Part shown: positions 14,485 to 19,739 of the stretch, in pieces
Position numbering within the stretch: position 1 is the stretch's first letter
How the letters are laid out: the number at the start of each line of letters is the position of its first letter
Assembly: GCA_013204185.1 (NCBI GenBank)
Contig: JABMOI010000202.1
Span: 1 to 33,654, forward strand
DNA from: a bacterium
GTDB taxonomy: Bacteria > Bacteroidota > Rhodothermia > Rhodothermales > UBA10348
Direction: 5' to 3'
Length of the DNA: 33,654 nt
Notes under the pieces: model-generated
Databases searched by the model: none
The model's input: only the letters and a program-made list of their open reading frames with translations
Told to the model about the DNA's origin: nothing
Position numbers and translations under genes: made by a program

Positions 14485-14952
14485 ATGCATTGTCGCATAT
14501 TGAGTCGACGTTGGTCTACTCTTTCGGTTGTCACCCTCAGTTTTCTCTTCGTCCTTTCCCTAAGCTTGGCGGGTTGCGGAAGTGACTCCAAGGCCGCCGA
14601 TGATTTGGTTGGTCCTGGGGATGACGGGGGTAATGGGCAATCGGGCCCGGTTAGTTTCTCGCAGCAGGTCGCTCCCATTTTTCAATCGTCCTGTTCGGGT
14701 TCTGGATGCCATATAAACGGCGCAAAAAACGGCGTCAACCTAACAAGTTACGCTCAAGTGATCGCGAGTCGTGGACAGCAATATGGGTCTTTGGTGGTGC
14801 TCCCCGGCAACGCTGCTCAAAGCCCGCTGGTGGACAAACTTGGCTCAAATCCTCTGTTCGGTATTCGGATGCCAGACGGCAAGTCAGCACTTTCTAGCTC
14901 GCAAATCACATTAATTCGGACATGGATCAATGAAGGAGCTCTCAATAATTAA
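14485..14952 (+). CDS. Lipoprotein with c-type-cytochrome-like domain carrying CX4CH (CSGSGCH)
   Basis: Lipobox LAGC; VSFSQQVAPIFQSSCSGSGCHINGAKNGVNLTSYAQV...GIRMPDGKSALSSSQITLIRTWINEGA, resembling PSCyt1/cytochrome c-like domains. Confidence 0.82.
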   Translation: MHCRILSRRWSTLSVVTLSFLFVLSLSLAGCGSDSKAADDLVGPGDDGGNGQSGPVSFSQQVAPIFQSSCSGSGCHINGAKNGVNLTSYAQVIASRGQQYGSLVVLPGNAAQSPLVDKLGSNPLFGIRMPDGKSALSSSQITLIRTWINEGALNN

Positions 14953-15496
14953 GCGATCAATTGGCTTGGTCCTGTTTTTATTAGCCGCTCTGCCCGTCCT
15001 CGCTTTCGGTCAAGTCGTGCTCACGAAGTCCGGCACGGTTTCGTTCACGTCCCATGTCCCATTGCATGATTTTACTGGGACGTCTGATACGATGGTTGGG
15101 CAGATTGATTTTGCCGAAGGAACCGTTGATTTTTATGTGGATCTTGCCACGTTGAAAACTGGTATCGGTAAGCGAGACAAAGATATGCGGCTAACTTTGG
15201 ACGTGAAGAACTATCCTTTTGCCGAGTTTTTTGGGAAGCTAACTTCGCCCGTTAATATGGAAGCTACCGCTCCTCAAACTGTGTCGGTTCAAGGGACGTT
15301 TTCAATTCACGGGGTTTCCAACGAGGTCACTGTTCCGGGCACACTAAAGCGCGAAGGAACGGCTTGGGTGTTGAGTGCAAAGTGGTCGTTGTTGTTAGGC
15401 GACTACAACATTGAACCACCTAAACTCCTCATCATGAAAGTAGACGAAAAACAAGAGATCGAGATTCTAGCCAGACTTGAGCCACAAACCAATTAG
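14930..15496 (+). CDS. YceI family protein
   Basis: 188 aa with signal peptide; MVGQIDFAEGTVDFYVDLATLKTGIGKRDKDMR and GTFSIHGVSNEVTVPGTL are YceI-like. Overlaps the upstream CDS by 23 nt. Confidence 0.87.
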   Translation: MKELSIIKRSIGLVLFLLAALPVLAFGQVVLTKSGTVSFTSHVPLHDFTGTSDTMVGQIDFAEGTVDFYVDLATLKTGIGKRDKDMRLTLDVKNYPFAEFFGKLTSPVNMEATAPQTVSVQGTFSIHGVSNEVTVPGTLKREGTAWVLSAKWSLLLGDYNIEPPKLLIMKVDEKQEIEILARLEPQTN

Positions 15497-15500
15497 AAAC

Positions 15501-16352
15501 ATGTCCAAAATTTCCCTGATCTGCGCATTAACCATATTTCTGGCTAGCTCAGCAAGTGGCCAGATGAAGCGGGAACGTAGTAGCACTGCGCAACCTTCGC
15601 CTGAACTATTTTGGGCGACCTCAATTGTGACGCTGCCCAGCGTTACCGCCGTTCCGAATGGCGATTTGGTTTTCACAATTCAGCATGCTTTTGGGCCCGT
15701 TTCCGATGGATTCAAGGAGCTTTTTGGCTTAGACCGATCTTCGAACATCCGATTTGGATTGGATTACGGGGTCTCAGATCGGGTTTCGATTGGAATGGGT
15801 AGGTCACGATTCGACAAAGTCTATGATGTGCGAGCCAAAGTGGGGTTGGCAACCTGGATGCGCGGCTCGAAAGCCACGATGTTGAGCGTTTTTGGAAATA
15901 TTGGAGTCGATTCCCAAGACAACGGACTTGATTTTGGAGATAGGCTGTCGAGTTATGCGTCAGTACTTGTGGCACACACGGTTTCTGAGAAATTTTCTAT
16001 TCAGGTATCGCCAGCGTGGACACATTTCAATCTGGCTAAAGAAAATGTCGTGTTTGGAGGGGGGATCGAAAAAGAAGCGTCGGATTTAGTGAGTCTTGGA
16101 CTGGCTGGCCGGTACGTCGTGTCATCGCGGGCATCCATTATGGTGGAGTACATCCCAGTTCTGGGGACCCGATCAGATGGTACCAATGACGCTTTTTCAG
16201 TGGGTGTTAATTTGGAAACCGGCGGTCACGTATTTCAGCTATTTGTAACCTCTACTCAATGGATTGCCCCTCAATACGTAGTAGCTAGGTCCCGAGACAA
16301 GTTCTTTGACGGTGATTTTGGTTTCGGTTTTAACGTTCACCGTGCATTTTAA
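15501..16352 (+). CDS. DUF5777-like beta-barrel protein
   Basis: Signal peptide MSKISLICALTIFLASSASGQ; ATSIVTLPSVTAVPNGDLVFTIQHAFGPVSDGFKELFGLD plus alternating beta-strand pattern. Start after the YceI stop. Confidence 0.8.
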   Translation: MSKISLICALTIFLASSASGQMKRERSSTAQPSPELFWATSIVTLPSVTAVPNGDLVFTIQHAFGPVSDGFKELFGLDRSSNIRFGLDYGVSDRVSIGMGRSRFDKVYDVRAKVGLATWMRGSKATMLSVFGNIGVDSQDNGLDFGDRLSSYASVLVAHTVSEKFSIQVSPAWTHFNLAKENVVFGGGIEKEASDLVSLGLAGRYVVSSRASIMVEYIPVLGTRSDGTNDAFSVGVNLETGGHVFQLFVTSTQWIAPQYVVARSRDKFFDGDFGFGFNVHRAF

Positions 16353-17218: not shown

Positions 17219-18541
17219 ATGCGCCTTAGTCGTAACCTTTTAACCGTTTTTATTTTAACCGTCCTCATGGCATATACGAGAGACTCTCTTGCCCAATCCA
17301 ATCTGAGTACTTCTGAGCGCCAATTGGTGGAGTTCATTGAGTCACGCGTTGATCCAGCCATCTCCTTTTTGGAGCGCGTCGTCAACATAAATAGCGGCTC
17401 CATGAATTTTGACGGGGTAAAGGAAGTTGGTGCCGAGTTTGCCAAGGAGCTTGAACCACTGGGTTTTAAAACATGGTGGGTGGATGGGACCGCGTTTTCT
17501 CGGGCGGGGCATTTGTTCGCTTCTCGGGGTACGCGCGGGCCGCATTTCTTATTGATTGGGCATTTGGACACGGTGTTCGAAATAGACAGCTCCTTCCAAA
17601 AATTTACCCGTCTATCTGAAGAAAAGGCAGAAGGTCCCGGCGTCATTGACATGAAAGGCGGCGATGTGGTGATGGTAGAGGTTGTGCGCGCCCTCTACGA
17701 GACGGGCGTTTTAGACAACATGACCGTGACCATTGCATTGATTGGAGACGAAGAGTCCTCTGGTGATCCTCTAGAAGTGGGGAGAGCGTCTCTTGTAGAG
17801 GCAGCTGACAATGCGGATATAGCCCTGGCGTTTGAACCAGGCGACGGAGATCCTCAGACGGCTGTGTTAGCCCGGCGTGGTTTCACCGGTTGGGAGGTAC
17901 ACGCCAAAGGGATCAGGGGGCATTCATCAGCGGTGTTTTCGGATGAAATGGGGTACGGCTCCATCTACGAAGCAGCGCGAATTCTGACTCATTTTCAGGA
18001 GTCTCTGGTCGGAGAGGAATTGCTCACATTCAATCCGGGCCTCATTCTCGGCGGTACGACTCTCGAGTATGATGAGGAAAATGACAGAGGGAGTGCTATC
18101 GGGAAATCGAATGTCATCTCAGAAAAAACCATCGTAACAGGAGACCTGAGGAGCATTTCTCCCGAGGTACGCGAGCGAGTAAAGACAAAAATGCGGGAGA
18201 TTGTGTCAAATAATTTGCCTGGAACGAGTGCTGAAATCATTTTTAGGGATAGCTATCCTCCTATGGGGATGACAGCGGGGAATGAGGAACTCCTCACCAT
18301 GCTTAGCAAGGCCAGTGTAGACGCAGGGTATGCCCCAGTTAGGGCAGGTGATCCTGCAGATGCAGGCGCAGCGGACGTATCGTTTGCCGCAGGTCGCGTA
18401 GAAATGGCGCTGGACGGGCTTGGGATGACGGGAGATGGAACTCACACCACGACCGAATGGGCTGATTTGAGCACGCTGCCCATGCAGACCATCCGAGTTG
18501 CCCTACTTATGAAGCGAATTACTGAGTCCTGGGGCAAATAA
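17219..18541 (+). CDS. Secreted M20 family metallopeptidase (glutamate carboxypeptidase-like)
   Basis: Signal peptide; LLIGHLDTVFE, GPGVIDMKGGDVVM, GDEESSG, GIRGHSSAV metal-ligand/dimerisation motifs. Confidence 0.9.
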   Translation: MRLSRNLLTVFILTVLMAYTRDSLAQSNLSTSERQLVEFIESRVDPAISFLERVVNINSGSMNFDGVKEVGAEFAKELEPLGFKTWWVDGTAFSRAGHLFASRGTRGPHFLLIGHLDTVFEIDSSFQKFTRLSEEKAEGPGVIDMKGGDVVMVEVVRALYETGVLDNMTVTIALIGDEESSGDPLEVGRASLVEAADNADIALAFEPGDGDPQTAVLARRGFTGWEVHAKGIRGHSSAVFSDEMGYGSIYEAARILTHFQESLVGEELLTFNPGLILGGTTLEYDEENDRGSAIGKSNVISEKTIVTGDLRSISPEVRERVKTKMREIVSNNLPGTSAEIIFRDSYPPMGMTAGNEELLTMLSKASVDAGYAPVRAGDPADAGAADVSFAAGRVEMALDGLGMTGDGTHTTTEWADLSTLPMQTIRVALLMKRITESWGK

Positions 18542-18585
18542 AAAGCAGGCGGAGATAGGACGTTGATGAAGAATCCACAAAGTAG

Positions 18586-18625
18586 TTGACTAGACAAGTA
18601 AGTCGTAGTATATTTGACCAATCAA
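18586..18625. promoter_or_regulatory. Two TTGA-N4-TCAA-like operator sites overlapping a Bacteroidetes-type promoter for the marR-like gene
   Basis: TTGACTAGACAA (18586-18597) and TTGACCAATCAA (18614-18625), start-to-start 28 bp. TATATTTG (18609-18616) matches TAnnTTTG and lies 20 nt after GTTG (18585-18588). Confidence 0.7.
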
Positions 18626-18657
18626 TTAAAGCACTCCGGTAACGGGTTGTTTACTTC

Positions 18658-19125
18658 ATGAAGTCGATTCAATCAGATCTAAAGCCATCAAAGCGGGTTC
18701 CGACACTAGGTGCGGAGGCGACGATAGCTTTATCTAGAACCGCTTCGTTAGTCAAGCATGAGTTGGAAATTGAACTTGAGGAGCATGGTATCACGCTACA
18801 ACAGTTTAACGTTCTGCGCATCTTGAGAGGGGCTAAGGAGCCTCTGCCCACCATGGAAATTGGTGCTAGGATGATTGAGCGAGAACCGGGTATTACCAGG
18901 TTGTTGTCTCGACTTGAAGCAAAAGAATTAGTGCAGCGGACTCGTTGCACGGAAGACGCTAGACGAATTTGGATAGCTATCACAGACAAAGGATTAAACT
19001 TACTGACTGATATTGGTGAGTTATCTGAGTTTGGTGTGAGAGAGCCAATTCAAACGCTGGACTCGGAAGAGTTAACCGTCTTTATCAAAATCCTGGACAA
19101 AATTCGGGCGGCAATGCCATCCTAG
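18658..19125 (+). CDS. MarR family transcriptional regulator
   Basis: 155 aa winged-helix: ITLQQFNVLRILRGAKEPLPTMEIGARMIEREPGITRLLSRLEAKELVQRTRCTEDARRIWIAITDKG. Confidence 0.9.
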   Translation: MKSIQSDLKPSKRVPTLGAEATIALSRTASLVKHELEIELEEHGITLQQFNVLRILRGAKEPLPTMEIGARMIEREPGITRLLSRLEAKELVQRTRCTEDARRIWIAITDKGLNLLTDIGELSEFGVREPIQTLDSEELTVFIKILDKIRAAMPS

Positions 19126-19140
19126 TTTTTTCCGATATAG

Positions 19141-19262
19141 TTGACTAGTCAAACAAGAGAAAACAAATGCAAAGCAACGGACCACTTCGCTAGATAGTTG
19201 ATTAATCAATTATGTGGCCCATTACTTGACTAGTCAACTAGCAACCTTTCTTGATCACTCAA
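19141..19262. promoter_or_regulatory. Four TTGA-N4-TCAA sites between the MarR and NTF2-like genes
   Basis: TTGACTAGTCAA (19141-19152), TTGATTAATCAA (19198-19209), TTGACTAGTCAA (19226-19237), TTGATCACTCAA (19251-19262). First three are perfect palindromes. Confidence 0.78.
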
Positions 19263-19278
19263 AAAACAACCAGATACA

Positions 19279-19662
19279 ATGGAAGCAAATACGATTACAC
19301 GTAAAGAAGAACTGCTAAATTTAGTAACCGACCTGAACGGAATGATCCTGAACGGTCAAGTACTAGAAGCACACGATAAGTTTTATGCCAATGATGTCAT
19401 TCAAATGGAAAACTCAGAAATGAGCTTTGAGGGCAAAGAACTAAATCGGAAAAGAGAAGAGGAGTGGGTCAACAACATTGTTGAGTTCCGCGGTGCTGAA
19501 GTCAAATCGATCGCAGTAGACGAGGCAAACGACATCACGATGGTCGAATGGTTCATGGACTACACTCACAAAGAATGGGGATCCAAAACCTACCAGCAAG
19601 TCTGTGTCCAACGTTGGAATGGAAACCACATTGTTCACGAACGCTACTACAATGGCGGCTAG
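19279..19662 (+). CDS. SnoaL/NTF2-like small protein
   Basis: 127 aa; LNGMILNGQVLEAHDKFYANDVIQMENSEMSFEGKELNRKREEEW...VEWFMDYTHKEWG...QVCVQRWNGNHIVHERYYN resembles NTF2-like folds. Confidence 0.8.
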   Translation: MEANTITRKEELLNLVTDLNGMILNGQVLEAHDKFYANDVIQMENSEMSFEGKELNRKREEEWVNNIVEFRGAEVKSIAVDEANDITMVEWFMDYTHKEWGSKTYQQVCVQRWNGNHIVHERYYNGG

Positions 19663-19694
19663 ATTCAAGCCGTGTAGCTTTTAGAGCTGAAACG

Positions 19695-19731
19695 GAAAGA
19701 GGGCGCGATGCAAAGCATCGCGCCCTCTTTC
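19695..19731. terminator. Intrinsic terminator between convergent NTF2-like and PHP genes
   Basis: Perfect 17-bp stem GAAAGAGGGCGCGATGC/AAA/GCATCGCGCCCTCTTTC followed by TTTTAT. Confidence 0.92.
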
Positions 19732-19739
19732 TTTTATAT

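Follow-up and report, generated by a model that had tools for sequence, protein, structure and literature searches.

A gene for a MarR-type repressor, followed on the same strand by a small gene of the SnoaL/NTF2 kind and with repeated palindromes ahead of both, raises the question of what the repressor binds and which gene it controls. The window, the whole stretch of 33,654 nucleotides that was analysed, holds the following features around this pair:

17219-18541, + strand: gene for an M20-family peptidase, the upstream neighbour of marR
18586-18614, + strand: predicted marR promoter TTGACT-N17-TATATT (-35 at 18586-18591, -10 at 18609-18614, 10 of 12 matches)
18586-18597: operator-like site 1, TTGACTAGACAA within TAGTTGACTAGACAAGTA, one mismatch; its left arm doubles as the marR -35
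18614-18625: operator-like site 2, TTGACCAATCAA; starts on the last base of the -10, at about the expected transcription start
18658-19125, + strand: marR, gene for a winged-helix repressor of 155 aa (Pfam PF01047/PF12802, PDB homologue 3u2r, AF2 model)
18889-18921, + strand: codon of Gly78 and predicted recognition helix a4 (residues 79-88, ITRLLSRLEA)
19141-19152: operator-like site 3, TTGACTAGTCAA
19198-19209: operator-like site 4, TTGATTAATCAA
19226-19237: operator-like site 5, TTGACTAGTCAA; best match to the 18-mer described below, 17 of 18
19251-19262: operator-like site 6, TTGATCACTCAA; the weakest, its core and flanks misfit the 18-mer
19279-19662, + strand: snoaL, gene for a SnoaL-like (NTF2 superfamily) protein of 127 aa (Pfam SnoaL_5 PF20409, AF2 model)
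19694-19732, + strand: intrinsic terminator, the end of the unit after snoaL (-34.8 kcal/mol, z -9.75)

The reading preferred here, drawn from sequence comparison, is that a MarR-type repressor very probably regulates its own gene together with its target, the neighbouring snoaL, as a local module.

The six sites of the form TTGA-N4-TCAA that an earlier note on this DNA had described, two upstream of marR and four between marR and snoaL, are all present, the one at 18586 with one mismatch, and the spacings it gave of 28, 57 and 28 bp are also correct, with a further one of 25 bp. Spacings of 28, 57 and 25 bp amount to 2.67, 5.43 and 2.38 helical turns, which are not whole numbers. Clustering was set against 2000 dinucleotide shuffles, in which the 737 bp from 18542 to 19278 gave a mean of 0.034 exact sites and a maximum of 2 where five are found, and the 153-bp gap between marR and snoaL, which has four exact sites, gave a mean of 0.012. 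Across the whole window the loose motif with one mismatch is not enriched, with 23 found and 22.3 expected; what stands out is that the sites cluster and share a longer motif, not that the loose motif is abundant. The arms of the motif as first described stand, the free N4 does not, as CTAG is found there in three of the six sites and the flanks repeat too. The sites are copies of an 18-bp palindrome, TAGTTGACTAGTCAACTA, with site 19251 the poorest fit. In pattern searches of the 3.44-Mb genome this palindrome, at up to three mismatches, occurs in five places (reversed control, one), four of them at the marR-snoaL locus and the fifth inside a phosphatase-like ORF. Restriction to the locus is therefore a property of the extended motif and not of the bare 12-mer, which is common at 104 places (reversed control, 38) and, being so frequent, is not diagnostic and is unfit as a genome-wide test.

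The window MarR scores 36.8 bits against PF01047 (cut-off 24.6) and 35.6 against PF12802 (cut-off 27), which places it in the family, and its AF2 model (pLDDT 91) shows the MarR fold, wing strands and helices included. Against the HpaR equivalog TIGR02337 it scores 59.5 bits, below the curated cut-off of 121.2. The nearest solved homologue is 3u2r ('Regulatory protein MarR', 66 bits, 150 bits by profile), which has Asp (APDITRL) at the position of Gly78 in the window protein. A cysteine in the wing (RTRCTED) is frequent in proteins with Gly at this position, found in 14 of 21, yet it is not universal, and MhqR can do without its Cys95 (PMC6798810); a role as redox sensor is therefore not claimed for the wing cysteine.

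The window SnoaL belongs to the SnoaL-like/NTF2 proteins (SnoaL_5, 28.3 bits, cut-off 24.1), with an AF2 model of pLDDT 95. Its top fold match in the PDB is 3hk4 (MLR7391 of Mesorhizobium, 25% identity), for which the function label is merely 'putative', and the next matches are limonene-epoxide hydrolases, at 14% identity and at the level of fold only. Such matches tell neither ligand nor activity. As a rule it is the MarR protein that senses the ligand, and the SnoaL-fold protein could equally be an enzyme; the suggestion that it serves as sensor is therefore not upheld.

How the sites might act is seen most clearly ahead of marR. The overlap of operator and predicted promoter that had been noticed there is supported; its reading as a GTTG -33 and a TAnnTTTG -7 is replaced by the standard pair TTGACT-N17-TATATT, which fits better, the TAnnTTTG at 18609 being the same -10 position as TATATT. 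In loci L127, L132, L134 and L204 the left arm of the operator is likewise the -35, with a 17-nt spacer; the first three, from Acidobacteriota, are marR-snoaL operons with TTGACTAGTCAA 35 bp before marR and have TAAAGT, TAATGT and TAATCT as -10 elements, 17 nt from the operator -35. A TTTG -33 and a TAnnTTTG -7 are published promoter elements of Bacteroidota (PMC7366714), and this reading fits the snoaL promoters of Chitinophagaceae very well, where the two elements exactly bracket ATGTTGCAACAT or ATGTTTAAACAT in at least 16 loci. The relatives of this locus do not fit it, and for marR the standard pair is preferred. A search for promoter hexamers of snoaL in the window found no clear ones. 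On the minus strand a promoter-like TTGACT-N17-CATAAT (19209-19237) points from site 5 back towards marR; it could be an antisense promoter or simply follow from the palindromic sequence.

In sequence terms, the 18-bp palindrome with sites 1 and 2 over the repressor's own promoter agrees with the 16-20 bp palindromic operators that characterise the MarR family. A MarR dimer would bind TAGTTGACTAGTCAACTA, and with sites 1 and 2 occupied the marR promoter would be covered at its -35 and around its -10 and start; as site 1 lies on the -35 and site 2 at the end of the -10, binding would exclude RNA polymerase. Sites 3 to 5, and perhaps 6, would serve to repress snoaL, the next and single gene, in a unit ending at the strong terminator, with the four sites probably giving tighter or graded repression. 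Release of MarR by a small molecule would then induce marR and snoaL together. Phenolics, quinones and other electrophiles release many MarR proteins, and the effector would most plausibly be one of these. By analogy the best guess for the inducer is an electrophile or quinone, since other MarR proteins control genes of quinone stress that encode nitroreductases and enzymes of that sort (PMC6798810).

The palindromes recur at orthologous loci of relatives. Close MarR orthologues, of 49-61% identity, are found in five other genomes of the family. In L004 and L005 the order M20 peptidase-marR-snoaL is kept with one site before each of marR and snoaL, TAGTTGACTGGTCAAGTA ahead of marR and TACTTGACTAATCAAGCA or TACTTGACTAATCAAACA ahead of snoaL; L002 has a site ahead of marR and no snoaL, and L003 and L006 have the MarR orthologue with neither site nor snoaL. 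Elsewhere in the order the arrangement marR-site-snoaL is kept in L039 and L040/L068, and of 114 genomes scanned across the order, 12 contain the pattern TANTTGAYTNRTCAANNA, most of them in the window's family (reversed control, one genome). The dense array, in which a compact sensor module had been seen, is not conserved: close relatives carry a single site ahead of each gene, and six sites are found in the window's genome alone.

Regulation of the genes upstream was rejected, as the M20 peptidase, YceI and CutC genes have only scattered one-mismatch matches near them. The YceI gene overlaps a gene for a DUF5777 beta-barrel protein (window 14930-16352), and a similar order is found in L153 and L154, behind a gene for a small CxxCH-like lipoprotein.

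A scan of named genomes that used the alignment of SnoaL proteins as query found 80 loci, and the distinct SnoaL loci number 90 in total. A MarR gene lies within 400 bp of snoaL in 42 of the 90, always on the same strand, with marR before snoaL in half of the pairs and after it in the other half; only one further MarR was found in the SnoaL loci retrieved (L116, 665 bp off). Rhodothermota, Chitinophagaceae, Acidobacteriota and Gemmatimonadota all have such pairs, and in relatives of Salinibacter the palindrome is GTGTTGCAACAC or similar. Perfect 12-mer palindromes of the form TG-N6-CA are found in 43 of 106 MarR neighbourhoods and in 3 of 643 background stretches. This conservation argues for the earlier proposal that MarR regulates itself and that the SnoaL/NTF2 gene is its main target. 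Of the conditions that the earlier note had set against itself, two turned out in its favour: the sites do return in relatives, and the motif, in its extended form, is not common across the genome.

Related MarR proteins have other partners, in L007, L008, L012 and L017 and in L010, L013-L015, L022, L024 and L026, where the neighbours are NmrA/SDR-like genes (with TTGTATATACAA sites) or YceI-like genes (with GTGTTGTAACAC sites) and a site is often ahead of both genes of the pair. In L161/L028 (G004) TAGTTGATTAGTCAAGCA lies in the gap between the gene of a more distant MarR and a YceI-like neighbour, so that a second MarR clade has nearly the same operator. In the sister genus g2 a TAGTTGACTRRTCAACTA-type site lies 20-40 bp ahead of a nitroreductase-pirin operon (L150, L151, L152). 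SnoaL genes that have no MarR in L074, L090, L095, L097, L098, L106, L109 and L123 are downstream of a gene whose product ends like a Crp/Fnr regulator (SLSRIR), several with TTAAC-TA-GGT-AA-like motifs in the gap, and here the same SnoaL is perhaps under another redox-type regulator.

Of the other explanations, the one that survives best puts MarR at the head of a wider regulon for detoxification, with nitroreductase-pirin, DoxX and YceI genes as members (nitroreductase, pirin and DoxX are names assigned by eye from sequences) and the window locus as a reduced form of it. It would account for the same 18-mer preceding the nitroreductase-pirin operon in three genomes of genus g2 (G001, G002, G003), and for L204 (G209), in which a MarR with Gly at the same position (PGMTRL) has TTGACTAGTCAA upstream and TTGATCAATCAA between itself and a DoxX-like gene. 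G002 has the site before the operon, but no close MarR orthologue was detected in that genome. Against such a regulon here, the window's own genome was searched and has no credible site elsewhere, and the nitroreductase of genus g2 is absent from it. The explanation is less likely than not, though it is the strongest of the rivals.

Far less probable is that a different regulator, of FNR/CRP type or the genome's other MarR, binds the palindromes and that marR is a bystander or itself one more target. The TTGA...TCAA half-sites do look like FNR boxes and some Bacteroidota SnoaL genes adjoin Crp/Fnr-like genes. The FNR box is TTGAT-N4-ATCAA, which puts 6 bp between TTGA and TCAA, whereas all six sites at the marR-snoaL locus have 4, and an operator of FNR/CRP type was rejected on this spacing. 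Other MarR clades also have TTGACTAGTCAA-like sites beside them (L028 with YceI; L157 and L030), so a match to the motif does not by itself tell which protein binds there. The genome does have a second, more distant MarR (G000:C129) of the L157/L030 type, yet no palindrome site lies beside it. The palindrome co-occurs with the window-type MarR clade across genera and phyla, even upstream of the marR of L002 that has no snoaL, and where SnoaL genes adjoin diverged MarR proteins the palindrome has diverged to match. That the repeats are chance, or a mobile or structural repeat with no regulatory role, is scarcely credible: the frequency of the loose 12-mer across the genome would suit it, and the shuffle tests, the confinement of the 18-mer to this locus and the conservation of position across genera all oppose it.

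A further pattern is apparent in that the operator core tracks the residue preceding helix a4, Gly going with TTGACTAGTCAA and Asp with TGTTGCAACA/TGTTTAAACA. Where a palindrome is nearby, 14 of 15 Gly-type proteins have TTGA...TCAA and 38 of 40 Asp-type proteins have TG-T...A-CA, counts that include one-mismatch palindromes, some of them chance; proteins of the SNATR type go with TTGTATATACAA. A single change on the tree is enough to explain the Gly group (bootstrap range 1-2), the branch that leads to the SGVTR paralogues being very long, and a count of the link as many independent events was rejected. As a single change suffices there are one or two independent contrasts, and the link between residue and operator is put forward as a hypothesis. 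A tentative and less than even chance is given to the fuller idea that MarR-SnoaL is an undescribed conserved stress module in which the residue before the helix (Gly, Asp or Asn, the last with TTGTATATACAA) sets the operator core, in a natural specificity series.

The motif itself is not new, as TTGA-N4-TCAA has been measured before as the operator of a MarR protein: the footprinted operator O3204 of SCO3205 from Streptomyces coelicolor contains ...TACTTGAACTCTCAATC... (PMC3737563). Both are winged-helix MarR proteins, SCO3205 binding as a dimer, and in O3204 the motif is preceded by TAC (ATACTTGAACTCTCAATC) as in the window sites. Like the module proposed here, SCO3205 acts on itself and an adjacent gene from sites near each start (O3204/O3205). 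Its major-groove base contacts come from recognition helix a4, those to the TTGA half-site from Arg72, Ser73 and His77 in its own numbering (PMC3737563). The differences are that its target is divergent and dioxygenase-like where that of the window is SnoaL, that its consensus TTnAAnnnTCAA is without the CTAG core, and that it has two sites and not six. MhqR of Staphylococcus aureus is a quinone-responsive MarR-type autorepressor of mhqRED, which binds an inverted repeat of 9-9 bp that overlaps the start (PMC6798810). It controls an adjacent small operon together with itself, as proposed for the window MarR, and the nitroreductase-pirin and DoxX sites of the window protein's relatives have a similar flavour of detoxification, whereas its operator, TATCTCGAA-aTCGAaATA, and its targets are different. 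The literature searched gave no account of a MarR-SnoaL pair, of a TTGACTAGTCAA operator, of GTTGCAAC with MarR or of a YceI or pirin version.

MarR autorepressors with adjacent targets are the classic kind. The locus itself is a textbook autorepressor, ordinary but well supported, and it is the comparative series around it that is of interest. From sequence, a putative regulator, operator and target relationship can be assigned to a SnoaL gene that is common in genomes of Acidobacteriota and of Bacteroidota-related groups, yet unstudied. The repressor and operator pairs from several phyla provide a test set for the rules of recognition between MarR proteins and DNA. If the residue rule is true, one or a few substitutions could rewire the switch.
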